DNA of 64,000 nucleotides, taken from positions 1 to 64,000 of IMG/VR virus record IMGVR_UViG_3300027810_000002; one strand, 5' to 3'. The notes beneath the pieces are model-generated. The model saw nothing but the letters and a program-made list of their open reading frames with translations. It made no database searches and had not been told where the DNA came from. The DNA is from a virus. Below, piece by piece: positions 13,530 to 47,927 of the stretch. Position numbers and translations under genes: made by a program. The first letter of the stretch is position 1, and every line of letters starts with the position of its first letter.

Positions 13530-13976
13530 TTATAATGTTCTTGTGAATGATTCAAATGTTTTCACGAATTTTAATGAACTGTTAGATTTGCTTTCATTAA
13601 TACCATCACCTGTATAATTCCATTTCATACCTTTAGCTTGAACATCGCGACCTAAGAAACAATACATTCCTTTTACAAAACCTTCAAAGAATACAGCAGA
13701 ACCCATATCTTCTAGATCTTCAGCATATTGCCTTGCGTCAGCATCTTCAATTGCTTGAAGTTTAGTACCATCTTCTTCGTATGAAAATAAGATTCCTTTT
13801 TTAAATGTTAATACGTCTCCAGTATATACCCATCCATCTTCATCTTCTACTTCTTTACCCATTTCGAATTGTTCGAATTGTTCTTTTCCGTGAGCTAATG
13901 CTTCTTTTTCTGTTTTGAAGAAATCTACTCCTCCTTCACCTTCGTTGTGATTAATCACGTAAAATACTTTTGCCAT
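13530..13976 (-). CDS. Unknown protein with C-terminal leader-like motif
   Basis: A 148-residue acidic protein, MAKVFYVINHNEGEGGVDFF onward. Its short beta strands and repeated EQFE/EDED segments do not match a family I know. The last residues, SLKFVKTFESFTRTL, resemble the capsid-targeting-like leader (MKxVKxFESF) found at the N-termini of proteins in the 23-36 kb island, here placed at the C-terminus. A GATATATA element lies 30 bp upstream. Together these suggest a packaged or head-associated late protein encoded inside the replication region. Confidence 0.6.
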   Translation of the reverse strand: MAKVFYVINHNEGEGGVDFFKTEKEALAHGKEQFEQFEMGKEVEDEDGWVYTGDVLTFKKGILFSYEEDGTKLQAIEDADARQYAEDLEDMGSAVFFEGFVKGMYCFLGRDVQAKGMKWNYTGDGINESKSNSSLKFVKTFESFTRTL

Positions 13977-21111: not shown

Positions 21112-21324
21112 CTAATTGTTTCCATAATACTTATTTAGTGCTGCCAATCTATCGTCGGCGTCTACTAACATTGTTAATGCTTCTTCTGCATTTTTGTAAA
21201 AATCACCAGTAGAGTGATCTCCAATACCTGTTCCTTTATTTCCTAATAGATCTAAAGACAATAGGGCCTTTGCTTTATCAGCCTCTGCTGAGGTTTTAAG
21301 CATTGTAATTAAATGTGCATTCAT
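21112..21324 (-). CDS. Small unknown protein after the dehydratase
   Basis: A 70-residue protein, MNAHLITMLKTSAEADKAKA onward, with two helices joined by a Gly-rich turn (NKGTGIGDHSTGDF). It overlaps the dehydratase stop by 4 bp (coupled translation) and is followed by a terminator. No family is recognised. Confidence 0.6.
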   Translation of the reverse strand: MNAHLITMLKTSAEADKAKALLSLDLLGNKGTGIGDHSTGDFYKNAEEALTMLVDADDRLAALNKYYGNN

Positions 21325-22253
21325 TGATTTTTGTTTTTAATTGTGTTTACTTGTTCTAATAAAAATTCTTTAAATGAGAGTGTTTCCCAATCTGAAAATA
21401 ACTCTCTTACTTTTGACGAATCAACTGCGTATCTTCTATCATGTCCTAATCGGTCTGCTACAAATTCAAACTTTGGTTTTTTACCTAGCATCTCTCCGAT
21501 CATGTTTATTATTTCAATATTCTCATATCTTTCCCCAGATCCAATATTATAAACTTCACCTTGTTCTTTAGATAACATAAGATTGTATAATATCTGTGTA
21601 TTATCTTCTACGTCAATCCATTCTCTTACCTGGTTACCATCTCCATATACTGGGATTGTTAAATCCTCTGCAATAGATTTCATAATCTTTGGAATGAACT
21701 TCTCTGCATTTTGCTTAGATCCATAATTATTGCATGTTCTTGTAATTAAGTATGGTAATCCAAATGTTCTTCCAGCAGCTTCTACTAAAAGATCACTTGC
21801 AGCTTTAGTTGCTGAGTAATAAGAAGATCCTTTCAATCCGAAAGTTTCGTTAGATTCTGCATCCCAGCATATATCATCCATATCTCCATAAACCTCATCG
21901 GTTGAAATATGAATAAATTTCTTAAGGTCTTTGTTTTGTCTGGCACACTCTAATAAATTAAATGTTCCTTCAACATTAGTTCTAACAAATGGTTTTCCAT
22001 CTTTAATAGAGTTGTCTACATGACTCTCTGCTGCAAAGTGTACGATATAATCATAAGAACCTAAGTCCTCTGCGGTTACATCACAAATATCCATATTAAG
22101 AAAATCAATATTAGGTACATTAACTCTACGAGCATCTGCCGCATACGTTAAGTTATCAACTACCAATACTTCTGCATTTGGGTTTTTTCTTCCGATTGTG
22201 TTTACGAATTCAGATCCAATAAATCCAAATCCACCTGTTACGATTATTCTCAT
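21321..22253 (-). CDS. dTDP-glucose 4,6-dehydratase-like SDR enzyme
   Basis: A 310-residue extended short-chain dehydrogenase of the RmlB type. The NAD-binding GGFGFIG is at 7-13, the catalytic T118-D119-E120 lies in STDEVYG, and YxxxK is Y146/K150 in SYYSATK. NNYGSKQNAEKFIPK and REWIDVEDN are typical of nucleotide-sugar 4,6-dehydratases, which make the 4-keto-6-deoxy sugar precursor of rhamnose and related sugars. Next to a cytidylyltransferase and near a DNA glycosyltransferase, it may supply an unusual sugar for DNA, virion or host surface modification. RmlA, C and D are not in the window. Confidence 0.9.
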   Translation of the reverse strand: MRIIVTGGFGFIGSEFVNTIGRKNPNAEVLVVDNLTYAADARRVNVPNIDFLNMDICDVTAEDLGSYDYIVHFAAESHVDNSIKDGKPFVRTNVEGTFNLLECARQNKDLKKFIHISTDEVYGDMDDICWDAESNETFGLKGSSYYSATKAASDLLVEAAGRTFGLPYLITRTCNNYGSKQNAEKFIPKIMKSIAEDLTIPVYGDGNQVREWIDVEDNTQILYNLMLSKEQGEVYNIGSGERYENIEIINMIGEMLGKKPKFEFVADRLGHDRRYAVDSSKVRELFSDWETLSFKEFLLEQVNTIKNKNQ

Positions 22254-22828
22254 GCGTTGTCTAATAATTCTTTAATTCCGTTTTTATATTGTTCTTCCGA
22301 AAGACTACCTTCAACATATTGCGCGATTTCATCTCTAATGGCTAACATTAAATGTTGAGCTGCTGTAGTATCTACATCTTGTTTTGCTCTATCAATTAAC
22401 TCTGGGTTTTGTTTTACGGTTTGCATTGTAATTAAATCTTTTAGTTTAGTGGTCGACCATCCATGTGATCTTGTTGTATATACAACATCAATTGGTAAAT
22501 TATCACCGGTGAATCTTTTACCGATATAATCATCTCCTAATATTCTAACATCAGGCTTATAAAATTCCATTAACTTTATTAAGTCTTCTTCATTTTGGTA
22601 TGTGACAACCTCATCAATATATTTAATTGACATTAATGTCTTATATCTTTCGTATAACGGAATAACTGGTTTGTATTTTGTAAATCTTGTTTCAGAAGGA
22701 TCTACCTGTAAAAAGACCATAAAGTATTCACAGTGTTCCTTTGCTGTTTCAAAAGTGTAAATATAACCAGGATGTAATAGGTCAAAGTTACCTGCAGTAA
22801 ATCCTATTTTCTTTTTTAAGTTGCTCAT
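22250..22828 (-). CDS. Cytidylyltransferase-family enzyme (TagD/RfaE-C-like)
   Basis: A 192-residue nucleotidyltransferase. The N-terminal TAGNFDLLHPGYIY (11-24) is the TxGxFDxxHxGH motif of glycerol-3-phosphate, ethanolamine-phosphate and heptose-phosphate cytidylyl/adenylyltransferases, with Y22 where the second histidine is usual. RYKTLMSIKYIDEVVTY and WSTTKLKDLI (the STT segment) fit the family. It would join a nucleotide to a sugar or alcohol phosphate. It overlaps the dehydratase start and the upstream small gene by 4 bp each, so the three are co-expressed. The altered HxGH histidine leaves activity uncertain. Confidence 0.82.
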   Translation of the reverse strand: MSNLKKKIGFTAGNFDLLHPGYIYTFETAKEHCEYFMVFLQVDPSETRFTKYKPVIPLYERYKTLMSIKYIDEVVTYQNEEDLIKLMEFYKPDVRILGDDYIGKRFTGDNLPIDVVYTTRSHGWSTTKLKDLITMQTVKQNPELIDRAKQDVDTTAAQHLMLAIRDEIAQYVEGSLSEEQYKNGIKELLDNA

Positions 22829-23156: not shown

Positions 23157-23720
23157 TTATTTTACTTTTGCTGTTGCTAAATATCCTTGGATTTCAGTGT
23201 ATTGAGATCTGAACTTAGTTTCACCAACAACTGATCCCATTGTGAAAGAAACAAATGTTCCTTCTGGTTTTTTCATAGCTGATTTATATAGAGCAACTGC
23301 TTCTTCTTGTGTTGCAAAAACCCCAAGAATCTTTTTATTAGTTGTAGATCCAAATCTAGCACCGCCTTCTAATCTAACCTCTTGACCGTTAAAGCTTACT
23401 TTATTATTAGCCATTACTAGATATTTAGTTTCTCCTTTTGCTGGAGCTTCTGATGAAAACTGTTCGTATTCACTTGTAGTAAAATAGTAAGAGCTCATTG
23501 ATTCGTTTAACGCTGGGTTGCTTTCATTTAAGAAAGATTCTAATCCTTTAATGTGTTTCATTATTTTCTTTTTCTTTTTATATTCTTCTTCAGCGTCTCC
23601 ACTACCTGCTGGAACATCTCCTGATCCAACTTGCGTTGCTGTTGGTAATAAAGTTGCTCCCATACCTCCAATACTTGCTGGAGTTATATTTTCATCTATA
23701 TCGTTTTTTCTGATATGCAT
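23157..23720 (-). CDS. Leader-bearing protein with Gly-rich N-terminal extension
   Basis: A 187-residue protein whose residue 54 begins MKHIKGLESFLNES, a variant of the island's shared leader. The preceding 53 residues are low-complexity (PASIGGMGATLLPTAT, GSGDVPAGSGD) and end in a lysine run. The first ATG (23720) follows the previous stop by two bases, so I keep it, but a start at 23561 giving 134 residues is also possible. The C-terminal domain (YYFTTSEYEQF through YTEIQGYLATAKVK) is unrecognised. It is the last gene of the cargo island. A packaged head protein is inferred from the leader. Confidence 0.6.
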   Translation of the reverse strand: MHIRKNDIDENITPASIGGMGATLLPTATQVGSGDVPAGSGDAEEEYKKKKKIMKHIKGLESFLNESNPALNESMSSYYFTTSEYEQFSSEAPAKGETKYLVMANNKVSFNGQEVRLEGGARFGSTTNKKILGVFATQEEAVALYKSAMKKPEGTFVSFTMGSVVGETKFRSQYTEIQGYLATAKVK

Positions 23721-23722
23721 GA

Positions 23723-24151
23723 TTAATATGTTGGAGTTTCTATTATCTTCAACTTAACAAGTTCAGCAATAAATTCTCTGAATTTCATTTTAATAGCTCT
23801 ACTAATAATAGTTTTATCACCTTCTACAAGATCACCGCCGTCAAAGTAATATGACTTGCCATTGTTTGCTGCTGTCTCTATAACGTTACCCAGCATAAAA
23901 TCAGAAGGACATCTTCTCGCTCCTGATAATGTTTTTACAACATCTTTTCCCCATGAAGATAAACCCATTTGTTCAGATACCTGACTATCATATCTAATTG
24001 GATTTCCAGGTAATGCTTGAACAGCGTCGCCTTCTGGTGTTCCATCAACGGCATAATGATATGCAAGAATAGCGTTAGCTAATGCTTCATCTCTGCCAGC
24101 TTTTAATCTTGCTTCGTTAACAAACTGTTCAAATAATTGTAAGTGTTTCAT
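23723..24151 (-). CDS. Leader-bearing putative capsid cargo protein
   Basis: A 142-residue protein starting MKHLQLFEQFVNEARLKAGR, one of the clearest copies of the island's leader with predicted cleavage after NE. The remainder (DEALANAILAYHYAV, SSWGKDVVKTLSGARRCPSD, SYYFDGGDLVEGDK) has no family I recognise. By analogy with T4 internal proteins it would be incorporated into the prohead, trimmed by the prohead protease and injected with DNA. It is located between the large polyprotein-like gene and the Gly-rich leader protein, all in the same direction. Confidence 0.65.
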   Translation of the reverse strand: MKHLQLFEQFVNEARLKAGRDEALANAILAYHYAVDGTPEGDAVQALPGNPIRYDSQVSEQMGLSSWGKDVVKTLSGARRCPSDFMLGNVIETAANNGKSYYFDGGDLVEGDKTIISRAIKMKFREFIAELVKLKIIETPTY

Positions 24152-24170
24152 TTTAGTTTTCTTTTATTGT

Positions 24171-27100
24171 TTACCAGGCGTAATCAAATTTCTTGATTTT
24201 ACCTACTTTATCTTTAATTTCTTTAGCGTAATTCTGAGACTCTTTTTCAGCATAACTAGATGTGTATTTCTCTGCTTTAGCTTGTTCAGCTTGTTTAGTG
24301 TAATCAACGTATCTGCTATAATCATCTAATATCTGAGACATATGATTAGATGCGTCTCTCATTTTAGCTTCTCTACCCTTAGAATTTCTTCCAATAATAA
24401 TATCTCCGTATCTTCCTTTTTCATTTTTAGCTAAACCATCTTTAATTTGAGCGGTTAATGCATCAATTGAATCTGCAACCATTTTATCTAATGGTAATTT
24501 AGAAGCTTTAGTTGCTAATATTTCTTGGTACCTTGCTTTGTTTGCTTTTTTGAAGTCTTGATCGCTTTCGAATGCAACTGCACCGGCTTTTTGATCAACT
24601 CTTCTTTTAACATCTTCTGCTGAAGATTTAGTAGGATTATTTAAACTGAATGCAATTGCTCTATCTGCTAAATCTGCGGCTCTTTTAATTGAAGAAACTC
24701 CAGTTGCATCATAACCTTTATATGCTTTGTTTCCACCAACTGCCATTCTATCATCTCCACCTTTTAAAGTTTTAGTGTTCTTCTTTGCTCTAAATCCAGT
24801 TTTTTCATATTGAACTCCTAAGAAATCTTTTCCTCTTGTTAACGCTAATATTCCTGGAGCAACTTGACCTGTTCCGAATGGATTATGTTTTGCATTATCT
24901 ACTACGTAAAATACAACAGCTTCTCTATTGTTAGCATACGCTTTATAAGCTTCTTTAGGTGTCATGTCGATTAAATCTTCGTCTCCGATTTGATCTAACT
25001 TCATTTTAGTTAATTGATAAAATGCTTTAGGTAATTGAACATCGTTCTTACCCCATCCCATCGCATCTGACATAGTTAATAAGTTTCTTAACTTAGAAGA
25101 TTTAAATGCTTCGTTAATTACTGATTCCTTTACGAAATTCTTAAGATCATCTGGATCTATAGAGTATTCTACTTCATCAGCATCGCTCCAAAGAATAACT
25201 TCATCTTTACCAATTTCGTAAATTTCGAATGATGAGTTTTTTAAGATTTCAGATCCATCAACGTCGTTAGTTTTATCATAAACATCTCCATCAAAATCAT
25301 CGCTATCGCTTTTGGCTTTAATATATTGTCCTTTTTTAAATTTAGCTTCGTTAATTACTGATTCAGCGACGATAGTATCGTAATGTACCTCTTGAACATC
25401 ACCATTATAATCAGCATAAACATCAATAGACCATTCTTTACCATTATCATCTTTACCTAACCAGAATTGATCTTGTCCTTCGTTACCGTGATCATCAATA
25501 ACATCTTCGTAATCAAATTCTACTTTATGTAATTTGCTACCTACTTTAAATTCAACGTAAGGCCATTCTTTCTTAATAACTTTAGCTGATTTAGCTTCAA
25601 TAACTAAAGATTCGGATTCATTTAAAGAGTTTATAAAATCTCCGAATGATTCGTAAATAAATTTTGTTTTCATATTTGTGTTTGTATTTTCATTTAAATC
25701 TAATGACCATCCATATTCTACGTATGATATTGCTTCATCTGGATTTACTTTATGTTTTTTAGCTACTTTTAATACTACATCTCTTGTTATTTGAGAATTT
25801 GGAAGTTTAGCAATTGCTTTATCAAACCCTGAAGGAACCCATATTTCTGGATTCTCATTGGTTGCTTCCTGTAATTTCATTTCTAGAGGCTTTGTATTTG
25901 TAGGCTCTTTTTCGTTTATTGTAATTGAAGCTAGTGCTCTATTACCGAATTTACTTAAAGAAATACCTTCTTCTGATACATTAAAATATCTAGTATTGTT
26001 CTTAGCCCATCTTTTACCATTAGTTGATAATTCTTTTAAAATATCATTGAATTCATCTTGTGTGATTTTACCATCACCAATAGCTTCTAACATTTTATTA
26101 CGTACATTTGCACGTTTACCTACAGTAAGTGCTGGATGATTTTCAGTATATCTTCTTTTAAGAGTTATTTTAGATTCATCTAATCTTTTATTAGTACTGT
26201 CTTTAGATAAAATTACTTTAAAGTTTTTACCTTTTAAATCAGTTGTTGCAACTGACCAACTTCCTGTTGCTGCGTTTCTTACAACTAAAACATCTCCTTC
26301 TTTGCGAATAAAATAAGATCCTCCTGCATATTCTCCAGTTGCTCTAGGATCTACTCCTTCTTTATCTTCAATATCTAAATCAAATGAATGTGGTTCAGTT
26401 CCTGGAGTTACATTAAATTTTAAACCGTCTTTCTTAGAATCTTCTTTAGTCCATTCGTCAGCAACTTGCTGTGCGATTTTCTCAGTTTGTTTTTTATTTA
26501 AAGTTATATCAAGTCTCATAAGCCTAGACTCATTATAACTTGCGATGTCAGAGTAATTAATTTCATGCTCTTCACCGTCTTGATCTAATGCAAAAATAGA
26601 TTTATCATTCCACATTGCATCATTTTCATCATTACCATTATCATAAGCATATATGATATATTCCTCACCATTAGCTAATTGAATAATACCATCATCGGCT
26701 TTCATAGCTTTCATTAACTTCTTCTTGTCGAATTTAGCTTCATTAACTACTGATTCAAATACACTAACTGCGACGTTAGTAGATTTTAAATAGCTTTTTA
26801 ATTCCATTCCCATTGCATCTGCTACCAGTTTCATTTCTGGTTCACTCATGTAAGTTGAAGTTCTAACTTCATAACCATTTTTACCTTTTTTAGCTATTTT
26901 CTTAATAGCTTTAATGCTGTTACCTGTTGCTTCTTCAAATTTCGTTGGAAATTCATACTTAAAGTCTGACATGTTGCCGTCATACGCTTCATTAGCCATT
27001 TCACCGTATAAAGATTCAACCCACTCTACTGAGTCTGCTGTTTTCTTAATCTTAGCACCGAACTGCTTAAAAAAATCTTTAGTAAAAGATTCAATATCCT

Positions 27101-27197
27101 TTGAGTCGTTTGCTAATTGATGAATATCTGACATTGTTCCTTCTAATAGAGAAGCATAGTCTTTTTTATTTTCTGATAAAAATGATTTAAAATTCAT
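24171..27197 (-). CDS. Large polyprotein-like capsid cargo protein with repeated cleavage-like sites
   Basis: A 1008-residue protein with no single recognisable family. It starts MNFKSFLSENKKDYASLLEG, a short leader-like sequence. Cleavage-like segments recur inside: FESVVNEAKF (cut predicted after E153), SLVIEAKSA (after E534), AESVINEAKF (after E617) and KESVINEAFK (after E696). They would release pieces of roughly 153, 381, 83, 79 and 312 residues. Around residue 509 a second leader-like start, MKTKFIYESFGDFINS, suggests fusion of two ancestral genes. The small 83- and 79-residue pieces are acidic and beta-rich (YVEFKVGSKLHKVEF; KKGQYIKAKSDSDD). A GATATATA element lies 35 bp upstream. Confidence 0.7.
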   Translation of the reverse strand: MNFKSFLSENKKDYASLLEGTMSDIHQLANDSKDIESFTKDFFKQFGAKIKKTADSVEWVESLYGEMANEAYDGNMSDFKYEFPTKFEEATGNSIKAIKKIAKKGKNGYEVRTSTYMSEPEMKLVADAMGMELKSYLKSTNVAVSVFESVVNEAKFDKKKLMKAMKADDGIIQLANGEEYIIYAYDNGNDENDAMWNDKSIFALDQDGEEHEINYSDIASYNESRLMRLDITLNKKQTEKIAQQVADEWTKEDSKKDGLKFNVTPGTEPHSFDLDIEDKEGVDPRATGEYAGGSYFIRKEGDVLVVRNAATGSWSVATTDLKGKNFKVILSKDSTNKRLDESKITLKRRYTENHPALTVGKRANVRNKMLEAIGDGKITQDEFNDILKELSTNGKRWAKNNTRYFNVSEEGISLSKFGNRALASITINEKEPTNTKPLEMKLQEATNENPEIWVPSGFDKAIAKLPNSQITRDVVLKVAKKHKVNPDEAISYVEYGWSLDLNENTNTNMKTKFIYESFGDFINSLNESESLVIEAKSAKVIKKEWPYVEFKVGSKLHKVEFDYEDVIDDHGNEGQDQFWLGKDDNGKEWSIDVYADYNGDVQEVHYDTIVAESVINEAKFKKGQYIKAKSDSDDFDGDVYDKTNDVDGSEILKNSSFEIYEIGKDEVILWSDADEVEYSIDPDDLKNFVKESVINEAFKSSKLRNLLTMSDAMGWGKNDVQLPKAFYQLTKMKLDQIGDEDLIDMTPKEAYKAYANNREAVVFYVVDNAKHNPFGTGQVAPGILALTRGKDFLGVQYEKTGFRAKKNTKTLKGGDDRMAVGGNKAYKGYDATGVSSIKRAADLADRAIAFSLNNPTKSSAEDVKRRVDQKAGAVAFESDQDFKKANKARYQEILATKASKLPLDKMVADSIDALTAQIKDGLAKNEKGRYGDIIIGRNSKGREAKMRDASNHMSQILDDYSRYVDYTKQAEQAKAEKYTSSYAEKESQNYAKEIKDKVGKIKKFDYAW

Positions 27198-27230
27198 GTT
27201 TAGTATTTTGTTTTATTCTATATTATAAGA

Positions 27231-29120
27231 TTATATATCTTGGTTATTTATGAATTGTTCAAAGGTCATCATGCTGTTATCTAATTCGATTGATTCTGAA
27301 ACCAAGTCCATTGATTTTTCAAGTTCAGACTTTAAAGTGCCATACATTCCATGAATAGCCTTTGGCGTCATTTTCTTAAAAGTCTTTTCGTCTCCGTCTA
27401 TCATCGCATTTCTAACTTGAGTTGCTGAGATATTGTCATCTGTTCTTGGAATTTCAAATAATCCAAAGTCAGATCTTACGTTTAATTGATCTCTATATGA
27501 ATCATTATTAACTTGATATCCATAACCTTTTAATCTATCTGTTCCAGTTCCCCATAAGGTTGGCTCATACTTAGGTCTTAGTGCATTGAATATAGTATCG
27601 ATTCCTCCAGTCGGTATAATAAGAATTTCTTTTAGAAACTTATATTGCTTTTTAACATTGTTAAACATTTTAATTTGTAAGTCCGAATCGTATGGTTTTG
27701 AAAATTCATCTCCTTTTTTACGTTTTGGATTTTTAGATTTAACTAAAAGCACTACTACTGGAAATCCATTCTCTTTATGAATAGCCTCTAATACTTTGGC
27801 ATGACCTAATGTAAATGGTTGGAATCTACCAACAAACATATTTACTTGCTCTTTACCTTGTTCAGCGTGTTTTACGTTTAATGCCTCATTTAAGCTTACT
27901 GATGTTTTAATCTTATTGTGCATCATAAAATTATTGTAATCATATATTGAATTCTCATCTGTATTTTCAACGAACACTAATTCGTTTATTTTATCAACCA
28001 CGCTATTTAACTGCAAGACCATATCATCATTAATTATATCTGTTGCTTTAGTCTTTTGCTTTCTAAATGTTCCGATTGTTATTTTAAATAGAGAAGATAA
28101 AACTTCGTTTGATACGTGTGTTAGTGTTTTATCGTTCTTGATGAAATTTGTATTTAACTTAAAAGAACTTGAATTTGAAAACTCTGCGTTATCAAAGTTA
28201 ACTCCAATATATCTCGAAGCATTCTTAGAAATATAGTCATTAAATACTACTGACATTAATTCTAAATATCTGCGATTTGCATCTTCTTCATTTAATTGAA
28301 TTTCTTTAAAGTCATATGTTGTAAAGTGCTCTAGTATATCTGCTATCGCGATTTGATACATGTGAGAACTTTCTCTTTTTTCACTTATATTAGTTTTTGT
28401 AAAATCTTCTAATTTAAATGAAGTTATCTTTTTTCCTTCTGAGAAGTTTAAAACCAATCCTTCAATTTCTTGTTCTAAATCATGTTGTAAAACAGTAGAG
28501 TTTGAGCTTGGATTAAATATCTTATATATTTCTTTTGTAAAGCTTGTTTCAGCTTCAGTTTCAATATCATAATCAAATGACTCTGAAAATTCTTTGTCAT
28601 TCATCTCTAATAATTTGATTAATCTATCAACCTGTACTTGGTCTAACACTCCATCAAAAATAACTTCTTGTTTTTGAGTGTCTAATACTTTAGCCCACTT
28701 AGATATAATCGCCGGATCTATTATAGTCTTTTTAACTTTATTAGATTCGCTCATATGTTGAACGTGAGTTAGTATTAAATTATTGGTTGGTACTTTATCA
28801 TATGATATTGAAGATACGTTTGTTTCTGGTAAATATTCAAATCCAAATCTATAATCAGATGGTAGCTCTTCTTTGCTTTCTGGATTTAAACTTTGAATAT
28901 GTTTAATAGCAACTTCATATAATGACATTATAGTTCTATCAATGATTGTAAGAGGATTTCCATTCGAAGATTTATAATATTCAAATTTATCATTTACTCT
29001 CCTAACATAAAATGATGGAGCTGAGATTTTCTCAACTACCATTACTCTATTTTTTAATAGCCTTTGGAACTCGTTAGCATTTGCTGATTGAAAATGCTCT
29101 CTTAATTTTTGTAATGCCAT
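27231..29120 (-). CDS. Ligase-like nucleotidyltransferase fused to NMN-adenylyltransferase-like domain
   Basis: A 629-residue two-domain protein. Residues about 20-240 look like an RNA-ligase-type covalent nucleotidyltransferase: motif I VVEKISAPSFYVRR with candidate lysine K31 (the usual DG replaced by SA), FGFEYL (92-97), motif IV EGLVLNF (220-226) and motif V FKLED (235-239). From 428 an NadM/NMNAT-type domain follows: MFVGRFQPFTLGH (431-440 core) and SATQVRNAM (565-573). The linker contains VSLNEAL with a cleavage-like site after E412. The C-terminus MMTFEQFINNQDI resembles the island's leader. It could join or cap RNA and make NAD or another adenylylated cofactor; substrates are unproven. 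Confidence 0.75.
   Translation of the reverse strand: MALQKLREHFQSANANEFQRLLKNRVMVVEKISAPSFYVRRVNDKFEYYKSSNGNPLTIIDRTIMSLYEVAIKHIQSLNPESKEELPSDYRFGFEYLPETNVSSISYDKVPTNNLILTHVQHMSESNKVKKTIIDPAIISKWAKVLDTQKQEVIFDGVLDQVQVDRLIKLLEMNDKEFSESFDYDIETEAETSFTKEIYKIFNPSSNSTVLQHDLEQEIEGLVLNFSEGKKITSFKLEDFTKTNISEKRESSHMYQIAIADILEHFTTYDFKEIQLNEEDANRRYLELMSVVFNDYISKNASRYIGVNFDNAEFSNSSSFKLNTNFIKNDKTLTHVSNEVLSSLFKITIGTFRKQKTKATDIINDDMVLQLNSVVDKINELVFVENTDENSIYDYNNFMMHNKIKTSVSLNEALNVKHAEQGKEQVNMFVGRFQPFTLGHAKVLEAIHKENGFPVVVLLVKSKNPKRKKGDEFSKPYDSDLQIKMFNNVKKQYKFLKEILIIPTGGIDTIFNALRPKYEPTLWGTGTDRLKGYGYQVNNDSYRDQLNVRSDFGLFEIPRTDDNISATQVRNAMIDGDEKTFKKMTPKAIHGMYGTLKSELEKSMDLVSESIELDNSMMTFEQFINNQDI
27232..27239 (-). 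promoter_or_regulatory. Putative late promoter element GATATATA
   Basis: It lies 35 bp upstream of the ATG of the 1008-residue polyprotein-like gene, overlapping the stop of the preceding gene. Confidence 0.4.
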
Positions 29121-29149
29121 ATTTTTTTATTAATTTTCTTAATTATTGA

Positions 29150-29863
29150 TTATGCAAATGCTTCAATATCCCACTGGATTCTCTGCATCGGATCTTCTCC
29201 TCTAAAGTTCTTCTTTACCCAATCAATAAGTCCATTTTCGTTTTTAGCATTTTGTGCCATATCAAAAGCATTGAATGCTCCTCCGTTTGCTGCCATGTCT
29301 TCTAACCACTGATCATATTTCTTTTGATTCCATTTAACCTTCTTAGCGGCCTTCTTATGTGGACCATCTCCTAATTTAGAAGTAGCTGCATCATAAGAAC
29401 CTGGAAGAAATACTCCAGTTGTTCCTTTACCATATCCGATTTGCTTTCTAAACCTTCTTAGTGAATAATTAGCAATATCGATTTGCTTTTTTGTAGAAAC
29501 TTCTCCTTGCTTTTTACCAAGCTCTCTTTTCATTTCTTCAGCAGTTTTTTCGTCAGTTTCAAAATGCAGTGCTTTTGTTAAATCTGCAATATTATCAAAT
29601 TTACCTTCAGTAATCACTGATTCACTAAATAATCTCTTACCTGTTTTATCTTCTAAATGTATAAGTGCTTTAGGATATTTTTCTTGCATTACATTAAATG
29701 TAGCAGGAGCAACTTCTGGAGTACTTACAGGTTCTTGATGGATAACTTTACCATCTTGTACAACTACAATAACAGCAGGATAACTTCCTTGCTTTGCTGT
29801 TTTATGTACTTTACCTTTATTAGCCTCAGCTATAAAACTTTCAAATAATTTTACTTTTTTCAT
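29150..29863 (-). CDS. Leader-bearing putative capsid cargo protein with a second cleavage-like site
   Basis: A 237-residue protein starting MKKVKLFESFIAEANKGKVH, a clear leader with predicted cleavage after E13. A second site, FSESVITEGKFD, would cut after E86. That gives a 73-residue beta-rich piece (YPAVIVVVQDGKVIHQEPVS) and a basic 151-residue C-terminal piece (KKKQIDIANYSLRRFRK is not exact; the readable core is DIANYSLRRFRKQIGYGKG, then HKKAAKKVKWNQKKYDQW). The basic piece may bind nucleic acid. No known family. It is flanked by the two nucleotidyltransferase-like genes. Confidence 0.65.
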   Translation of the reverse strand: MKKVKLFESFIAEANKGKVHKTAKQGSYPAVIVVVQDGKVIHQEPVSTPEVAPATFNVMQEKYPKALIHLEDKTGKRLFSESVITEGKFDNIADLTKALHFETDEKTAEEMKRELGKKQGEVSTKKQIDIANYSLRRFRKQIGYGKGTTGVFLPGSYDAATSKLGDGPHKKAAKKVKWNQKKYDQWLEDMAANGGAFNAFDMAQNAKNENGLIDWVKKNFRGEDPMQRIQWDIEAFA

Positions 29864-29870
29864 AATATAT

Positions 29871-31160
29871 TTATCCTCCGTATTTTATGATACCCATTAG
29901 CTGGTTGATTGCTGCAAAAGTACCTGTTAGTTTCATTGTTTTTCCTTTATATACAAATACAATACCTTCAGTTGGTATAATTGATTCAACACCTCCGATT
30001 CGATCTAATCTTTCTAACTCTGAAATTACTTTATTAACTTGAGCAACTTCTCCACCCTTTTTAATTTTGTCAGCTTCAGTTCTAATTTGATTATGTAGTC
30101 TTTGCATTTCAGCGTCTGGATTAGCTGCAACAAAATTACTTGCATTTTTAAGAATGATAGATCCTAGTTCTAAGAAAAGGTCTTCAAACGGTCTAATGTT
30201 TTCTTTTTGTTTTACTTTAATATCTTCTTTATCAAATTTCTTTATAGCGGCTGCTTCGTCTTTACCAATCTCTTTTGCAAGTGATCTCATATTTAACGTC
30301 TTTTTGTCGCCATAGGCCCATCTTAATAATAAACCTTCTTTATAGTCTTGTTGTAAATCTGGAAAACTTGTATCAATTGTTTCTCTCCACCACATTTCGT
30401 GATATTTAGAAACTTGATCAGAGTCTGCTAATTTATATTTGTTCTTTAGATCTTCTACTTTCTTAATAAATTTAGCTTTATTCTTTTCAAAATCTAAATC
30501 TTTTCCTAATTTAATAATTTGCGGTGGGATAACTGTAAATGTTTTACCAACATTAATTTTAAGATCTTTCATTGCTTTCGCTATTGATCTTGCTGGTTTG
30601 TTATCATCTCCTATAATGTTTCCTTCTCCGTCTGTTTTCTTAATACCATGAAATTGAATAACATCACGATCATAATAAATTACATTTGGATTCTTAGAGT
30701 AAATTAACTCCATGTTCATCCAGTTTTTACCATTATCGAAAACTTCTAAATCTTTAGGGGATAATTTATTTAGCGAGTTTGCTAAGTCTTCTGCTGCGAA
30801 TTGAAAAGTATCTTGTACTAATTTACTTGGATGTCCTTCGAACTTTTGACTAAACGTAGCAAGATCCATTGGATTCTTTAATTCACCTTTATTTCTAGCA
30901 AATTTAACCTCTCCATCTTGTACTGTTGCAAATACGTTTTGGCCATCTGTTTTTTCAGTTGCTTCTTCCTCAAAGTTTAGTTCACCTTGTAAACCTGCCT
31001 CGATAATTTTCTTAAAATCTCCGAATGTTAAATCTTTTTCATCAAATGGATGGGACATGTGTCCTGCTGCTCCACCTTCTAAAATTAACTGAGAATCTTC
31101 TAATAATTCTTGATTTGTCCTTTCGACTAAAAAGTCTTGAAATGATAATAGTTTTTTCAT
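29871..31160 (-). CDS. Ligase-like nucleotidyltransferase with leader
   Basis: A 429-residue protein. The leader MKKLLSFQDFLVERTNQELL is followed by QLILEGGAAGHMSHPFD, where ILE|GG fits a prohead-protease site. The enzyme part has motif I EKTDGQN (K70 as the candidate nucleotidyl-lysine), then VKFARNKGELKNP, NWMNMELIYSKNP (motif III-like), EGLLLRWAYG and near the C-terminus EGIVFVYKGKTMKLTG (motif IV/V-like). This resembles a family of ATP-grasp-unrelated, ligase-fold proteins I recall from T4-like phages without an assigned role. RNA or DNA end joining, or protein modification by nucleotidylation, are options. The leader suggests it travels in the capsid. Confidence 0.68.
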   Translation of the reverse strand: MKKLLSFQDFLVERTNQELLEDSQLILEGGAAGHMSHPFDEKDLTFGDFKKIIEAGLQGELNFEEEATEKTDGQNVFATVQDGEVKFARNKGELKNPMDLATFSQKFEGHPSKLVQDTFQFAAEDLANSLNKLSPKDLEVFDNGKNWMNMELIYSKNPNVIYYDRDVIQFHGIKKTDGEGNIIGDDNKPARSIAKAMKDLKINVGKTFTVIPPQIIKLGKDLDFEKNKAKFIKKVEDLKNKYKLADSDQVSKYHEMWWRETIDTSFPDLQQDYKEGLLLRWAYGDKKTLNMRSLAKEIGKDEAAAIKKFDKEDIKVKQKENIRPFEDLFLELGSIILKNASNFVAANPDAEMQRLHNQIRTEADKIKKGGEVAQVNKVISELERLDRIGGVESIIPTEGIVFVYKGKTMKLTGTFAAINQLMGIIKYGG

Positions 31161-31164
31161 ATTG

Positions 31165-31467
31165 TTATTTTGACCAAGGATGATTCTTAGCCACCATTTT
31201 TTTAAAGTTAATAAGTCCTAAAACATCTCTGTCCTTTAAATCATGATGCAATCTGTAATCGTCGTGATTATATCGCCAATGAGCTTCTTTAGAACCCTTT
31301 CTGTGACCATATGTGACATCATCTTTTTTATCGTAAATTATTACGTTATCTGGGTGAAGTTCCTTGTATGACTCTTTAAACTTGTCGAAGGTATACCCTA
31401 CGACCTCATTATAAGTCCTGAATATTCCTTCACTAACAAATTGTTCGTATAATTTAATATGTTTCAT
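31165..31467 (-). CDS. Leader-bearing small putative cargo protein
   Basis: A 100-residue protein starting MKHIKLYEQFVSEGIFRTYN, with predicted cleavage after SE. The mature part of about 87 residues is rich in H, K, D and Y (KKDDVTYGHRKGSKEAHWRY, HDDYRLHHDLKDRD) and ends in a basic KKMVAKNHPWSK. No family is recognised. It starts 3 bp after the upstream stop, so it belongs to the operon of leader-bearing genes. Confidence 0.62.
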   Translation of the reverse strand: MKHIKLYEQFVSEGIFRTYNEVVGYTFDKFKESYKELHPDNVIIYDKKDDVTYGHRKGSKEAHWRYNHDDYRLHHDLKDRDVLGLINFKKMVAKNHPWSK

Positions 31468-31470
31468 CGT

Positions 31471-31791
31471 TTAATAATTTTTATGTCCTCCATTGATTCT
31501 TTCAATCTCATCATATTCTCTTCTAGAATAATTAGATGAGTCTCCGGAAATACTAATACCAGAACTTCCACCGTAAGTCATTCCAGCTTTCATTAATTTT
31601 TCATCAATGTCTTCTGCAATATAGTCAGGTGCGTCGCTACCTATAATAATATCAATTTCATTCCATTTAGTAACTAACATTACTGTAAATGGATATTTTG
31701 ATTTACTTAATATTTTAACTACTTTGTCAAAATATTTTTTATCTACTTTTGCTTCGTTTACGAATTGTTCAAATAATCTAATATGCTGCAT
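31471..31791 (-). CDS. Leader-bearing small putative cargo protein
   Basis: A 106-residue protein starting MQHIRLFEQFVNEAKVDKKY, with predicted cleavage after NE. The mature part has a small alpha/beta domain (FDKVVKILSKSKYPFTVMLV, EIDIIIGSDAPDYIAEDIDE) and a Gly/Ser/Tyr-rich end. It is packed within two or three bases of both neighbours. The function is unknown. Confidence 0.62.
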   Translation of the reverse strand: MQHIRLFEQFVNEAKVDKKYFDKVVKILSKSKYPFTVMLVTKWNEIDIIIGSDAPDYIAEDIDEKLMKAGMTYGGSSGISISGDSSNYSRREYDEIERINGGHKNY

Positions 31792-31792
31792 C

Positions 31793-32443
31793 TTATTTAT
31801 TCATTATATCTTTTAAAGTGTCAGCCATGCCTCTACCAAAAGAATAGCTTGAGTTTTGTAATCCAATTGTATCATAATTTGTACCAGTACTGTAGTTAAT
31901 CATAACTCCACCGTCTGATGAGTTATACTGATCTAATACAAACATTAATTCGTAAATCTCTTGAAACATTTTATCTTTAACGGATTTATTAATTCCTCCA
32001 CCGCATGTAACTGCGATTAAATAAGAATTATTACCATTGCTAAAGTTTGCTCTACCATCAATAGTACCACCTACTGTAGATCTCATTGTTCCAGAATATC
32101 CACCAGCAGCTCCTGTTGAAGATTGTTCAACTTCATTTTTCTTATATTTCTTAATTACCTTAGAAATCTTCTCTGCTAATTGATATGCGTTTCTTCCTTG
32201 AAATACATCATAAGAATCTTGTTCGATATCTCCTTGAACATTTAGATGTTCTTTGTAGTTTGGTAATTTACCGGATTTTGCAGATGCTTCCGCTTTTGCT
32301 AATACTTTTTCGTATGAACTTCCCCATTTTTCAACAGCGATCTTTGCGATTCTAACTTTATCTTCTAATTTAGCTTTAATACCTTTTTTATCAAAAGATA
32401 CTGCTTCATTTATAAAAGATTCAAATAATTTTACTGGTTTCAT
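31793..32443 (-). CDS. Leader-bearing putative cargo protein
   Basis: A 216-residue protein starting MKPVKLFESFINEAVSFDKK, with predicted cleavage after NE. The mature part has a helical N-terminal half (RIAKIAVEKWGSSYEKVLAK) and a Gly/Ser/Asn-rich beta half (GAAGGYSGTMRSTVGGTIDG, SYLIAVTCGGGINKS). I recognise no family. It lies 17 bp after the esterase-leader fusion gene and is co-oriented with the whole island. Confidence 0.62.
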   Translation of the reverse strand: MKPVKLFESFINEAVSFDKKGIKAKLEDKVRIAKIAVEKWGSSYEKVLAKAEASAKSGKLPNYKEHLNVQGDIEQDSYDVFQGRNAYQLAEKISKVIKKYKKNEVEQSSTGAAGGYSGTMRSTVGGTIDGRANFSNGNNSYLIAVTCGGGINKSVKDKMFQEIYELMFVLDQYNSSDGGVMINYSTGTNYDTIGLQNSSYSFGRGMADTLKDIMNK

Positions 32444-32460
32444 TGTTTTTATATTTTAAT

Positions 32461-33306
32461 TTATGATATGTCCATTGCGTCATCATGATCACATACAATA
32501 CCTTTTTTAGCTATTTGTTTACATAAAGCATCTAGCTCATCAGTTTCGTATGTTGATGGAACTTTATCTGTTATTTTAATAGATTTTAGAAAGGCTTGTA
32601 CTTCGTCTAATCCGAATTTAACCCTATGACCTACATTTGATGTTTTTGCAACATCATATAAATACGCTCCATAAAATCTACCACGCTGTTCTGTGTATGT
32701 AAAATTAATTCCTTTAACTCTGAAAGGTTCGTTTTGAGCAGATATTGCCTTTGCTTCGCTTACGAATTGTTCAAATAATTGTACGTGTTTCATTGTATAT
32801 TCACTTTTTTCTATTTTATTATATATCTCACTCATACTCAACATATCTTTAATACTATTGATAAATGCATCAGCAGGAACCCTATGACCTCCGTCATATA
32901 CTGTATGATTAAAAGATACTTTATTGTCTTTAAAGTATTTTCTTACTTCTTTTCCGCTAACGACTGAATCGCTCTTGCCAAATCTTATTTCTATTTTAGT
33001 CTTTTTTAAATCAGAATCATCTACGACTGGATCGAATGTTCTACCAACCATTGCTGGATTAAATAACAACACTGGGATTGAAAGCTTGCTTCCAATTAAA
33101 TAAGAAACATATCCTCCCATTGAAGATCCTACAATAAGATCTGGATTTAATGATTTAATATCTTTGTATAATTTATCAAAAGTACTATCATCTCTATAGT
33201 TTATTGATGGCATATAAGCCTTGTCAAAGTTTTCATTTAAAAATATAATCTTTGGGTCTTTTTGATCAATACTAGATTCTAAACCATGTAAATACGCTAT
33301 CTTCAT
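32461..33306 (-). CDS. Esterase-like domain fused in frame to a leader-bearing protein
   Basis: A 281-residue open frame. Residues 1-165 resemble small YqiA/YcfP-type alpha/beta hydrolases: MKIAYLHGLES, nucleophile elbow GSSMGGYVSYL (S62 within GSSMG), KTKIEIRFGKSDSVVS and GGHRVP (H141). At residue 172 the frame continues into MKHVQLFEQFVSEAK, a full leader, followed by a 95-residue domain (FRVKGINFTYTEQRGRFYGA). No stop separates the two. A GATATATA element lies 27 bp ahead of the internal ATG (32793), so a separate 110-residue product from 32461-32793 is also likely. Either the fusion is a polyprotein or a lost stop joined two genes. Confidence 0.7.
   Translation of the reverse strand: MKIAYLHGLESSIDQKDPKIIFLNENFDKAYMPSINYRDDSTFDKLYKDIKSLNPDLIVGSSMGGYVSYLIGSKLSIPVLLFNPAMVGRTFDPVVDDSDLKKTKIEIRFGKSDSVVSGKEVRKYFKDNKVSFNHTVYDGGHRVPADAFINSIKDMLSMSEIYNKIEKSEYTMKHVQLFEQFVSEAKAISAQNEPFRVKGINFTYTEQRGRFYGAYLYDVAKTSNVGHRVKFGLDEVQAFLKSIKITDKVPSTYETDELDALCKQIAKKGIVCDHDDAMDIS
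32820..32827 (-). promoter_or_regulatory. GATATATA element inside the esterase-leader fusion
   Basis: The octamer lies inside the open frame, 27 bp ahead of the internal ATG at 32793, a spacing like that of the intergenic copies. It suggests an internal late start for the leader-bearing part. Confidence 0.35.
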
Positions 33307-33321
33307 CTTTATCTTTATCTT

Positions 33322-33347
33322 ATTTGTTATATGTAAATATAAACAAA
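33322..33347 (-). promoter_or_regulatory. Repeated promoter-like element, copy 3
   Basis: TTTGTTTATATTTACATATAAC plus AAAT on the minus strand, identical to copy 1 (20686), 16 bp ahead of the ATG at 33306. Confidence 0.6.
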
Positions 33348-33378
33348 AAAAATGACATAAAAAAATATTATGCCACTT
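33346..33378 (-). terminator. Intrinsic terminator, cassette copy 3
   Basis: AAGTGGCATAA-7 nt-TTATGTCATTT, an 11-bp stem with two G:U pairs, then eight T on the minus strand. It follows the stop of the gene at 33392. Confidence 0.72.
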
Positions 33379-33391
33379 ATTTTGATTTATT

Positions 33392-33985
33392 TTAAGTTTT
33401 AGGTCTTCCTAATAATATCTTATCGTGCATTTTGCCTCCAAGTTTTCTAGAATACCAGCCATTTCCAGGTGATCCTTCTTTTAAACCTATCCAATCTACT
33501 TTTTTACCTAATACCTTTTCAACAGTTTCTAGATCTGAAACTAAAGGTACATTATATGAATCTAATAAGATCTCTGCGATCCTACCTGAAACTTCAATGT
33601 AAAAACCTAACTTATTAAGATCTCTTCCTCTAGCAGCGATGTATTCTCTTTTTGCTGCGGAAGTACCATCATGACCTACTCCTGAATATTTTACTCCGAA
33701 TTTGGTTTTTTTACCAAACATTATCATATCGAAATCTTCATCTCCGTGAAGGTCTAGACCTTCCCAATAATTCCAATCTGGATCTCCAAAAACATCGTCT
33801 GGCGATTTAATCTTTGCATGTCCACCTATTACAGAATATGCAGTAGATATTAACTCAAAGAATTCCCCAGCAAGCTCTGGATATTTTTTATGGTTAAACT
33901 TAGTAATTTTACCTCTCTTAGGTTTAATTAATTCACCACTAGTTTTTTCATTGATAAATTCTTCGTATAACTTTATATGTCTCAT
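33392..33985 (-). CDS. Leader-bearing putative cargo protein (conserved phage domain)
   Basis: A 197-residue protein starting MRHIKLYEEFINEKTSGELI. An upstream in-frame start at 34006 exists, but it would lie inside the preceding terminator hairpin, so I chose the ATG at 33983-33985. The domain has SVIGGHAKIKSPDDV, DWNYWEGLDLHGDEDFDMI, FGKKTKFGVKYSGVGHDG and LGKKVDWIGL. I recall similar sequences (HAKIKSP-D-DWDYW, FGVK-GMGHDG) as conserved proteins of unknown function in other T4-like phages. It forms a single-gene unit between two terminators. Confidence 0.65.
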   Translation of the reverse strand: MRHIKLYEEFINEKTSGELIKPKRGKITKFNHKKYPELAGEFFELISTAYSVIGGHAKIKSPDDVFGDPDWNYWEGLDLHGDEDFDMIMFGKKTKFGVKYSGVGHDGTSAAKREYIAARGRDLNKLGFYIEVSGRIAEILLDSYNVPLVSDLETVEKVLGKKVDWIGLKEGSPGNGWYSRKLGGKMHDKILLGRPKT

Positions 33986-34000
33986 CTTGATATATTGTAA

Positions 34001-34032
34001 AAGCATGACCTTGAAAAATCTAGGCCATGCTT
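34001..34032 (-). terminator. Intrinsic terminator after the 746-residue polyprotein-like gene
   Basis: AAGCATGGCCT-10 nt-AGGTCATGCTT forms an 11-bp stem (one G:U pair) followed by TTTAC on the minus strand; the T-tract is short (TTTT counting the stem end). Confidence 0.68.
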
Positions 34033-34041
34033 AACTTATTT

Positions 34042-36282
34042 TTATCCTAATGAAGATGTTAACATCCCAACGGCTGCTCCGTAATCTCCATCAGATTTTG
34101 ATAAGATTCCGTCTACAATTTCTTGTCCTTTAGCTTCGTCAAAATCATCTCCGAATGCTTTCTTTAAAATCGTGAATGCATATTCTTGAAATTCTTCGTC
34201 AGATTTAATTTCTGCTTCGTTAACTACTGATTCTTTAATACCGAATTCTTTAGCTAACATAGTTTGTACGTCTCCAACGTTTGCACCAGATATTTCCATA
34301 CCTTCCGTGTCGTTTGCTGCGAAATCTTCAGGTTGAGCGTATACAAATTTAAGTAATAAATCTTCGACGTCGTTTATGTCTTTTTTATTTTTATTGTAAA
34401 CATCTTTTAATTCTTTCATAGTAACTGAAAGACCTAAGGCACCGTGCTCATCAGAATCAATATCTAATTGAAATAATTCTTTAGCTTCGTTAACTACTGA
34501 TTCTTTAACAAATATTGCTTCTTTATCACTATATCCAGGTTCTAATGAAAGTCCGTGTTTTTTCATTAATGATTTATATTTATCAACGTTATTAATAAAT
34601 TCAATAGCAACGTCATCCATATCGCTTGGATCTGTATTTAGAAATCCTGTATAATCATCGTGTTTTTTATCAAATTGATAGTCTTTAGAAATCATTGCTA
34701 AGAACGCATTAACTTCTGATTTACCTTCAGTAACTACTGCTTCATTGTATAAATGAACATAGTTGCTTCCTTTTTTAGAATAAACTGATTCGATTTTAAA
34801 AGATCCGTCATTTTTACCGGCGTAATGTGCTCTAAAGAATAAATTATTATCAAGCTCTCCAAAGAAATGAGATAGTTTACCGATAAAGAATTCAGCGTTT
34901 GGATAAAGCTCTAAAACTTCTTCTTTTGTTTTCGCGTTTAAAACATCTCTATTAAAATCTTTTACGAATTTAGCTTCAGTAACTACTGATTCAAATGCTG
35001 GAACTAATCCTGAACCTTGGTAAAGATCTGCCATCATCCATTTTTTAGATTTTTCATCCCATAAGTATACGAATTCTGCTCCACCGTCTCTATCTGCGTC
35101 TTTTAAATAATTATCTATATTTTTAATAGATCCGGTAGTGTTTGCAGTACCGTCATTATAAAAGTTGATTTTAGAAATATCTGTAGATAAACCGCTATTA
35201 GCTCCTTTGCTAAGTACATCGTCTACATTTTTACCGTTTTTAAAAGATTTCTTAATAATTGGTAACATGTTGTCTGGGTAAGAATCATAATGAGTATATA
35301 CTGAAGTAATATTTCCAGCCTTGTCTATTTTACCAAATTGACCTCTTGTTCCTTCGTTAAGAACCGTAGATTCATTAACTGTTACTGGGTACATTTTACC
35401 GTTAAATTCAAATTCTTCTAAATCTTCTTCAATCGCTTTAGCTCTTGCTCCTAAAAATGCATTACGCTCTTCTAGTTTAGTAGTTTCATCAGTAACTGTA
35501 ATTAGTTCAACTTCATTTGATTCGTTTAGTTTAGAATCTAAATCAATTCTAACATCTTCTCCTTCGAATGCTTGGTTAAACTGATTGACTGCAGCTTGTC
35601 CCATTCCTTCTTGTTTAATCTGCTCTAAGTAAAGTGCAGTTCCTTCAACAATTCCTTGACCTCCCCAGCCAGCAGCATTTGCTATGTCTGAATAATATTT
35701 GTCTAATATAGTTTTAATTGTTGCAGGTCCAATTTTAATAAAGTGACCTCCTAATCCGGCCATTTTAATTTCTAAAGGTTTAATGTTTCCTTTAATCATT
35801 TTAGAAACTGGTAGTGCTTCTCTATGGAAGTTTGCATCAACCATCGCTTCGTGCATTAAATACTTAATACATCCTAAAATAGATTCACTAGACATTGCTC
35901 CTAAATCTACTAATACTTTGTTAAATATTTTATTATATACAGTTACAACTTTCTTAGCGTCTCTTTTACCTTCAACTTTAATAGCTTCAGTAATTTCTTC
36001 AACTTCTTCTTCATCACTAACAACAGGCACATCATCTTCTGATTCTGAATTATCTGATTCTTCTTCAGAAATTTCTCCAAATAATTGTGAAATTATAGCT
36101 GTTTTTTGTTCTTCGTCTAATCCTTCTAGTGAAGTGATTTCCATTGAATCTAATATAGATGCAATTTTTGTGGATAGTTCTTCTCTTTTAGTGTTGTTTT
36201 CTACTGCTAACTTAATTGTTGCTTCATGTGCTAACACATCTGAGAAAGACTTAAAAGATTTGATTTTATTCATTTCTGCCAT
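34042..36282 (-). CDS. Large acidic polyprotein-like capsid protein with repeated cleavage-like sites
   Basis: A 746-residue acidic protein starting MAEMNKIKSFKSFSDVLAHE. Residues 70-100 are almost all acidic, as in prohead scaffold proteins. A conserved-looking domain (about 108-240) includes VLVDLGAMSSESILGCIKYL and AAGWGGQGIVEGTALYLEQI. From residue 300 cleavage-like segments recur: STVLNEGTR (after E310), FESVVTEAKF (E436), NEAVVTEGKS (E519), KESVVNEAKE (E599) and KESVVNEAEI (E689). They would release pieces of about 126, 83, 80, 90 and 57 residues. It may be a scaffold-fused cargo precursor. A GATATATA element lies 35 bp upstream and a terminator follows, so it is monocistronic. Confidence 0.7.
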   Translation of the reverse strand: MAEMNKIKSFKSFSDVLAHEATIKLAVENNTKREELSTKIASILDSMEITSLEGLDEEQKTAIISQLFGEISEEESDNSESEDDVPVVSDEEEVEEITEAIKVEGKRDAKKVVTVYNKIFNKVLVDLGAMSSESILGCIKYLMHEAMVDANFHREALPVSKMIKGNIKPLEIKMAGLGGHFIKIGPATIKTILDKYYSDIANAAGWGGQGIVEGTALYLEQIKQEGMGQAAVNQFNQAFEGEDVRIDLDSKLNESNEVELITVTDETTKLEERNAFLGARAKAIEEDLEEFEFNGKMYPVTVNESTVLNEGTRGQFGKIDKAGNITSVYTHYDSYPDNMLPIIKKSFKNGKNVDDVLSKGANSGLSTDISKINFYNDGTANTTGSIKNIDNYLKDADRDGGAEFVYLWDEKSKKWMMADLYQGSGLVPAFESVVTEAKFVKDFNRDVLNAKTKEEVLELYPNAEFFIGKLSHFFGELDNNLFFRAHYAGKNDGSFKIESVYSKKGSNYVHLYNEAVVTEGKSEVNAFLAMISKDYQFDKKHDDYTGFLNTDPSDMDDVAIEFINNVDKYKSLMKKHGLSLEPGYSDKEAIFVKESVVNEAKELFQLDIDSDEHGALGLSVTMKELKDVYNKNKKDINDVEDLLLKFVYAQPEDFAANDTEGMEISGANVGDVQTMLAKEFGIKESVVNEAEIKSDEEFQEYAFTILKKAFGDDFDEAKGQEIVDGILSKSDGDYGAAVGMLTSSLG

Positions 36283-36316: not shown

Positions 36317-36324
36317 TATATATC
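36317..36324 (-). promoter_or_regulatory. Putative late promoter element GATATATA
   Basis: It lies 35 bp upstream of the ATG at 36282, immediately after the uvsW stop. Confidence 0.42.
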
Positions 36325-47874: not shown

Positions 47875-47927
47875 CTTTAAATTTAATTTATTTTATATTC
47901 TATATATTCTTTTTATATTACTGGTTG

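Follow-up and report, generated by a model that had tools for sequence, protein, structure and literature searches.

The viral record IMGVR_UViG_3300027810_000002 raises the question why so many proteins with little else in common begin with the same short peptide. The record is 175,162 bases long and its first 64,000 bases form the window analysed here; coordinates are counted from base 1, and the island genes lie on the minus strand. Between 23157 and 34006 the initial annotation had noted at least nine proteins with such a leader and, by comparison with the T4 internal proteins (IPs), which are directed into the prohead by a similar peptide that the gp21 protease removes, had read the block as an island of capsid cargo. 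This reading is supported by synteny, by a gp67-slot protein with the same tag, and by modules that stand-alone tagged genes and gp67 fusions have exchanged. Polyproteins, C-terminal tags and a second cluster at 82-85 kb have to be added to it. We regard an expanded T4-type capsid-cargo system, in which targeting and gp21 processing also cover modular cargo polyproteins, as the very probable answer. The island itself is present but is not confined to 34006, since it runs on to 36282 with a 746-aa protein.

All nine leader starts are found at their coordinates on the minus strand. A weight matrix covering the 13 residues after M was trained on these nine starts and used to scan every ATG, GTG and TTG of the record. 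The whole-genome profile search that had been proposed thereby yielded 13 tagged starts, the nine known ones and four new ones at 82731, 83812, 85017 (GTG) and 85483, which lie outside the window and were not in the training set. No match above 8 bits occurred in the reversed or the triplet-shuffled record, and a retrained matrix found 12, 7, 16 and 14 tagged starts in four near-complete relatives. An independent degenerate DNA pattern, M-K-x4-[FY]-xx-[FY]-xx-E, gave 7 exact matches in the record, 0 when read backwards, 5-11 in the four relatives and 0 in both T4 and P-SSM4, while a shorter pattern of T4 length matches T4 ipII, ipIII and one further T4 start. With 21 exact matches to the long pattern in the 462-kb phage record LR756500.1 (MKYIKEYEEFVNE-like starts), the expanded tag family extends to a huge uncultured phage that has a related protease-scaffold gene. 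Members of the second tagged-gene cluster (L002/L003, record 81790-85483) include g087, an ATP-grasp protein, and g089, a DUF5824 protein, each with the octamer GATATATA (see below) upstream.

The consensus of the 13-residue tag is M-K-[HK]-[IVL]-K-L-[FY]-E-x-F-[VI]-[NSTA]-E/, where the slash here and below marks the predicted cut. Among 96 distinct leaders, position 10 is F/Y in all 96, position 8 is E in 85 and the P1 residue is E in 79. The leader is therefore short, has conserved aromatic/hydrophobic positions and a P1 Glu, and is common to otherwise unrelated proteins, as in a T4-type capsid-targeting sequence (CTS). The claim that the leader-bearing proteins are mutually unlike holds for the stand-alone proteins, but segments of some of these reappear in relatives as polyprotein modules.

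The T4 leader given in the initial annotation, MKTYQEFIAEA, is correct: ipII and ipIII of NC_000866 begin so, and ipI begins MKTFKEFTSTTTPVSTITE/A. In T4 the first ten residues suffice, with positions 4 and 7 serving targeting and positions 8 and 10 controlling processing, and gp21 cuts after (L/I)-x-E (PMC9026906). If the leaders are aligned at the cut, T4 Y4, F7, I8 and E10 correspond to F/Y7, F10, I/V/L11 and E13 here, all of which rank with the best-conserved positions. Like IPI, IPII, IPIII and Alt of T4, the tagged proteins combine a short N-terminal leader, F/Y-x-x-F-[IV]-x-E/A, with unrelated mature parts and variable loci. Unlike in T4, the leader is three residues longer, there are 7-16 tagged genes per genome instead of 3-4, and internal copies of the cut site in polyproteins, C-terminal tags and a tagged gp67-slot core protein occur; the T4 CTS is common to IPII and IPIII but to no other core proteins (PMC9958956). 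The copy number had looked far above that of T4. It does exceed the total of Alt and the three IPs in T4, but at least ten ip genes are known from the T-even relatives taken together (PMC12373910).

The connection to the head is provided by the portal locus. The record begins at base 1 inside the portal gene 20 (1-949, minus strand; PF07230 in the L015 orthologue), so that the gp67-slot, gp21/22 and gp23 genes lie beyond its end. A PF03420 search of the record gave no match, and its control was also silent, the record ending in gp20. Hence the gp21 protease that was to be sought to the left of the window is not visible in the record itself, but a gp21-family protease is present in the records of 11 of 12 relatives, directly downstream of the leader-bearing gp67-slot protein. 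The gene order in relatives is gp20, gp67-slot gene, PF03420 (S77) protease-scaffold open reading frame (ORF) and PF07068 gp23. In contig L008, which is 99.99% identical to the record across 10.9 kb, the sequence extends beyond the portal into a leader-bearing gp67-slot ORF that begins MKYISLFEQFVAYAVELVNEKREDVG and contains ESVVNE/A (frame read from DNA). In the majority of portal loci that show the gp67-slot gene, this gene starts with the tag. In L010, whose portal is 97% identical to that of the record, it encodes about 800 aa with a tag, about seven modules and a core domain that is acidic, and the protease-scaffold ORF comes immediately after it; the module joints are ESVVIE/A, ELVVTE/A, ESLVTE/A, ESTVTE/G, ESMVTE/A, SFINE/S and MFNE/A. 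L015 has the tag, a single module of about 95 aa, VLSE/A and the core domain, and L083 only a tag-like start and the core domain. The gp67 slot thus holds none, one or many modules. Assignment of this gene as a gp67-type prohead core protein is by position between gp20 and gp21 and by its acidic C-terminal part, not by sequence homology to T4 gp67. It resembles T4 gp67, gp68 and gp22 in gene position (20-67-68-21-22-23), acidic tail and multiple gp21-type sites, and differs from T4 gp67 in having 0 to about 10 modules between leader and core domain and a length of up to at least 1315 aa, as compared to 80 aa. The gp21-like protease and gp22-like scaffold form one ORF of about 650-720 aa in L015 (12320-14404) and other portal loci, whereas T4 gp21 and gp22 are not fused.

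The cleavage-site half of the leader also recurs three to four times each inside the 746-aa protein (34042-36282) and a 1008-aa protein (24171-27197). The 746-aa polyprotein has a leader-like start, MAEMNKIKSFKSFSDV, predicted cuts after residues 436, 519, 599 and 689, and a conserved 57-aa C-terminal module. In the 1008-aa polyprotein the cuts are predicted after residues 153, 617 and 696 (ESVVNE/A, ESVINE/A and ESVINE/A), and its L114 orthologue aligns over residues 1-540 only. The motif E-x-[FV]-[VI]-[NTS]-E/A is found inside gp67-slot polyproteins as well, with 11 sites in proteins of up to at least 1315 aa. Its strict form, ES[FVILYS][VIL][NSTAV]E, occurs 10 times in the proteome against 0.3 expected from shuffles and is confined almost wholly to the tagged/polyprotein set; a broad form occurs 18 times against 1.75 expected, with a maximum of 7 in 300 shuffles.

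When all proteins of the set were cut at the predicted sites and the pieces compared, the cut-to-cut modules were found to reshuffle among polyproteins, gp67 fusions and stand-alone tagged genes. An initial segment clustering with loose overlap lumped most modules into one cluster, and stricter clustering was used instead. The 237-aa protein (29150-29863; leader MKKVKLFESFIAE/A), with cuts after residues 13 and 86, consists of a module 14-86 that ends in ESVITE/ and a module 87-237. The gp67-slot polyprotein of L012 contains both, each at a place of its own, and in L109 the second is the sole module behind a tag. Counterparts of residues 437-519 of the 746-aa protein are present in other polyproteins, those of L099 and L100, and residues 618-696 of the 1008-aa protein recur in a 746-aa-type protein of L094. 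In L088 the modules of the 746-aa protein appear in another order within DNA that is about 88-90% identical, and the gene and module content of the island varies among G000, L088 and L114, as in a hypervariable cargo region. Of the local-alignment ends, 16.6% are no more than 5 aa away from a predicted cut, as compared to 4.2% of random positions; this difference should be read as an effect size and not as a p-value because high-scoring segment pairs are not independent. At 80 distinct ESVV[NT]E sites the pairwise identity of the DNA is 91.5%, whereas codon-usage resampling gives at most 78.7%; since the sites are more alike than codon usage predicts, exchange via short repeats is suggested.

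The tag is not restricted to N-termini. A 629-aa protein (27231-29120) with an NMN (nicotinamide mononucleotide)-adenylyltransferase-like C-terminal half (PF01467, 3e-8; phrog_3041, 3.7e-15; PDB 2qjo, E 0.0026) has no N-terminal leader but ends in the tag MMTFEQFINNQDI (27234-27272). Among its orthologues all 37 distinct C-termini end in a tag-like peptide such as MTFEQFINN, of which 33 were recognised by regular expression (background 118/945) and four by eye (TFKQF three times, TFSQF); the variable stretch in front often contains V-x-E-S. Several members of a 148-aa family also end in a tag-like peptide, including the one in the window (INESKSNSSLKFVKTFESFTRTL; 13530-13976, minus strand), which is homologous (E 4e-24) to a module that L069 and relatives have as an upstream fusion to the gp67-slot protein. 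Over the proteome as a whole, tag-like peptides are not enriched at C-termini (7 against 4.9 expected); only the 629-aa and 148-aa families carry them there. The C-terminus of T4 Alt is also processed by gp21 (PMC9026906).

In view of the above, a probable sequence of events can be proposed. The 13-residue tag, at the N-terminus or in a few proteins at the C-terminus, would bind cargo to the prohead core, of which the gp67-slot protein, itself a bearer of this tag, would be part. After closure of the shell a protease of the gp21 family, which in this lineage forms one ORF with the scaffold, would cut after the P1 Glu. The larger carriers (gp67-slot, 746-aa and 1008-aa proteins) would be small domains joined by cut sites, so that one translation product could give several cargo proteins, and modules could pass between carriers and stand-alone tagged genes by recombination aided by the near-identical joint DNA. 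The freed proteins would remain in the head, would probably be injected and may act early against host defences, like T4 IP1-3. We consider it rather likely that the prohead acts as a polyprotein-processing compartment in which tagged carriers, including a core-protein fusion, deliver cargo separated by the protease, with the DNA of the cut site serving as a cassette-swap joint and the tag working at either end.

Other explanations can be considered. The tag could target the core and be cut while the modules serve as scaffold-like filler that is chopped and expelled, leaving few or no functional cargo proteins. This would be in agreement with the fate of T4 gp22, gp67 and gp68, which are cut to fragments that mostly leave the head (PMC9026906, PMC9958956), and with the gp67-slot protein being a core protein. 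However, the modules of 60-300 aa are conserved and also occur as stand-alone tagged proteins, and the enzyme-like tagged genes (ligase-like, NMN-adenylyltransferase-like, ATP-grasp) are under purifying selection; expelled filler is thus an unlikely explanation. It is quite improbable that the repeated peptide is only a recombination joint or domain linker that has no proteolytic meaning. The excess similarity of the site DNA and the shuffling of modules exactly at the sites could be explained in this way, but not that the consensus fits both the (L/I)-x-E specificity of T4 gp21 and the T4 leader, that the motif is present on the gp67-slot protein beside gp21 and at N- and C-termini, which require no joint, or that its strict form is almost restricted to the tagged/polyprotein set. 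Docking of the leader at another site in the infected cell or the virion, and not in the prohead interior, appears more improbable still: many tagged genes are distant from the head genes and the prohead localisation of the tag is predicted from sequence, yet the protein that occupies the gp67 slot of T4 bears the tag, and a residue-by-residue comparison shows that the tag matches the T4 capsid-targeting sequence.

Several observations nevertheless weigh against the capsid-cargo reading. The phage is uncultured, and the reading is built on sequence comparison; the gp21-gp23 region is absent from the record. In one subclade the gp67 tag is degenerate (MKHLQTFNNYSSLTE/D). The capsid protein of the clade does not have the F-[VI]-N-E/A form; its best candidate site is an invariant K-L-Y-E/D-A near the cut position of T4 gp23, which is compatible with (L/I)-x-E. 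Finally, the structure model of the 746-aa protein is too poor (predicted local distance difference test score, pLDDT, 53) to place the sites in linkers.

The proposed capsid-cargo system can also be compared with other systems. In phiKZ and SPN3US a large set of head proteins is likewise trimmed by a prohead protease (S80) and ejected, but the propeptides are long in most cases, with about 80-160 aa (one has 20), and have no common short tag (PMC5694885), nor is a module-by-module polyprotein known from these phages. The polyvalent proteins of Iyer et al. 2017 (PMC5512222) are also multi-domain and thought to be injected with DNA. They contain known effector domains with proposed autoprocessing by their own MPTase domains, whereas the modules here are unknown families split by sites of the prohead-protease type, and Pfam at curated cut-off gave no match for the 746-aa, 1008-aa and gp67-slot polyproteins. 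The cultured Chryseobacterium phage MA9V-2 (OR513085) is similar in its gp67-slot protein, which starts MKTFTYFINE/A, in a 1207-aa protease-scaffold fusion studded with INE/S, and in its capsid protein, with GGFLNE/S at the T4 gp23 cut position (GSFLTE/A). It differs in having a tag of T4 length and few tagged genes (4 pattern matches), and homologues of the 746-aa, 1008-aa and gp67-slot polyproteins were not found in it. Among the papers searched, none joined prohead protease, polyprotein and cargo.

The remaining island genes illustrate the diversity of the predicted cargo. The 197-aa protein (ORF 33392-34006) has the leader MRHIKLYEEFINE/K (33947-33985; 34.5 bits in the weight matrix) and a ratio of nonsynonymous to synonymous substitution rates (dN/dS) of 0.06. 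In the 281-aa ORF (32461-33306) the leader MKHVQLFEQFVSE/A (32755-32793; 41.5 bits, exact DNA-pattern match) is preceded in frame by a UPF0227-like hydrolase domain (PF05728, E = 1.7e-8). Because this fusion is kept in two close relatives and dN/dS over the whole ORF is 0.08-0.11, 32793 may be an internal site instead of, or besides, a start. Next are a 216-aa protein (31793-32443; leader MKPVKLFESFINE/A, 32405-32443, found by weight matrix and DNA pattern), a 106-aa protein (31471-31791; MQHIRLFEQFVNE/A, 31753-31791, weight matrix) and a 100-aa protein (31165-31467; MKHIKLYEQFVSE/G, 31429-31467, both methods). The 429-aa ligase-superfamily-like protein (29871-31160; alignments A2 and A3) has a divergent leader, MKKLLSFQDFLVE/R, that is retained in the huge phage LR756500, a second invariant site, LILE/GG, at residue 28, and KxDG, EG and K ligase motifs by our reading of alignment A2. 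PDB profile searches with this family and with the most frequent module gave nothing significant, and the structure model of that module (pLDDT 79) had no PDB fold match. The 142-aa protein (23723-24151) carries MKHLQLFEQFVNE/A (24113-24151; both methods). In the 187-aa protein (23157-23720) the leader MKHIKGLESFLNE/S (23561-23523) follows an N-terminal extension conserved in 9 segments (cluster 4). This extension (23608-23720) holds GMGATLLPTATQVGSGD, which resembles the capsid-protein segment that immediately follows the candidate cut (GMGATAFPSAGGNGSGD; E 0.005 over 17 aa) and could possibly be a form of shell mimicry.

Cargo genes are under purifying selection, with dN/dS of 0.06-0.32 against L114 and L088. 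The octamer GATATATA is present upstream of 17 genes (1.15 expected), including portal, tail and fibre genes as well as the cargo genes starting at 36282, 27197, 82731, 83812 and 85483; the copy at 36317-36324 (minus strand) lies 42 nt upstream of the 746-aa gene. Its distribution suggests a candidate late promoter. The T4 late promoter TATAAATA is not enriched before cargo genes, and GATATATA is the better candidate. Recognisable cargo comprises the ligase-superfamily-like, NMN-adenylyltransferase-like and UPF0227 hydrolase-like proteins and, outside the window, the ATP-grasp protein. T4 IP1-3 share only the leader and each blocks a different GmrSD nuclease (PMC12373910), and T4 infection of E. 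coli ECOR17 requires IPIII (PMC9391042). A PADLOC scan gave nothing convincing. An early anti-defence or repair role of the cargo is a plausible guess.

This marine phage is T4-like, as portal, PF03420 protease and Gp23 capsid families are matched in records of close relatives and T4-type replication genes in the window are recognisable by sequence. Megablast with the island region found nothing among phage records, and tblastn searches of 50,697 phage records with the 746-aa, 1008-aa and L010 gp67-slot polyproteins were likewise without a match. Shine-Dalgarno-like motifs are rarer before starts than in the coding control (6/156 versus 20), as expected for Bacteroidetes hosts, and a marine T4-like genome of 180 kb and 32% GC has been assigned to Bacteroidetes (PMC7198788); we infer that the host probably belongs to this group. 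Some further genes may be mentioned. Family-B DNA polymerase is split over two ORFs (11103-12302 and 17098-18495), one with the exonuclease part and motif A (DFASLYPS) and the other with motifs B and C (NSIYGAFGN, YIDTDS), and ribonucleotide reductase and clamp-like genes sit between them. Several long fibre-like proteins, encoded at 45382-50489 and at record positions 95731-106782, have collagen-like G-x-Q/G-D-Q-G repeats close to the N-terminus. By eye, adjacent dTDP-glucose-4,6-dehydratase-like and cytidylyltransferase-like nucleotide-sugar genes lie beside the cargo island (21321-22828), and a class I glutaminyl/glutamyl-tRNA synthetase-like ORF (FPPEPNGHLHLGHAK), unusual for a phage, is found at record positions 129206-130735 (L005).

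Tag and cut site together provide a sequence signature for head cargo in uncultured T4-like phages, where most gene functions are unknown, and candidate injected, possibly anti-defence proteins can be listed in large sets from such signatures alone. The core claim can be tested, since one Bacteroidetes phage that has a related head module is in culture. If true, the classical T4 mechanism would be extended to polyproteins and C-terminal tags, and the near-identical cut sites suggest a concrete route by which phages exchange cargo domains.

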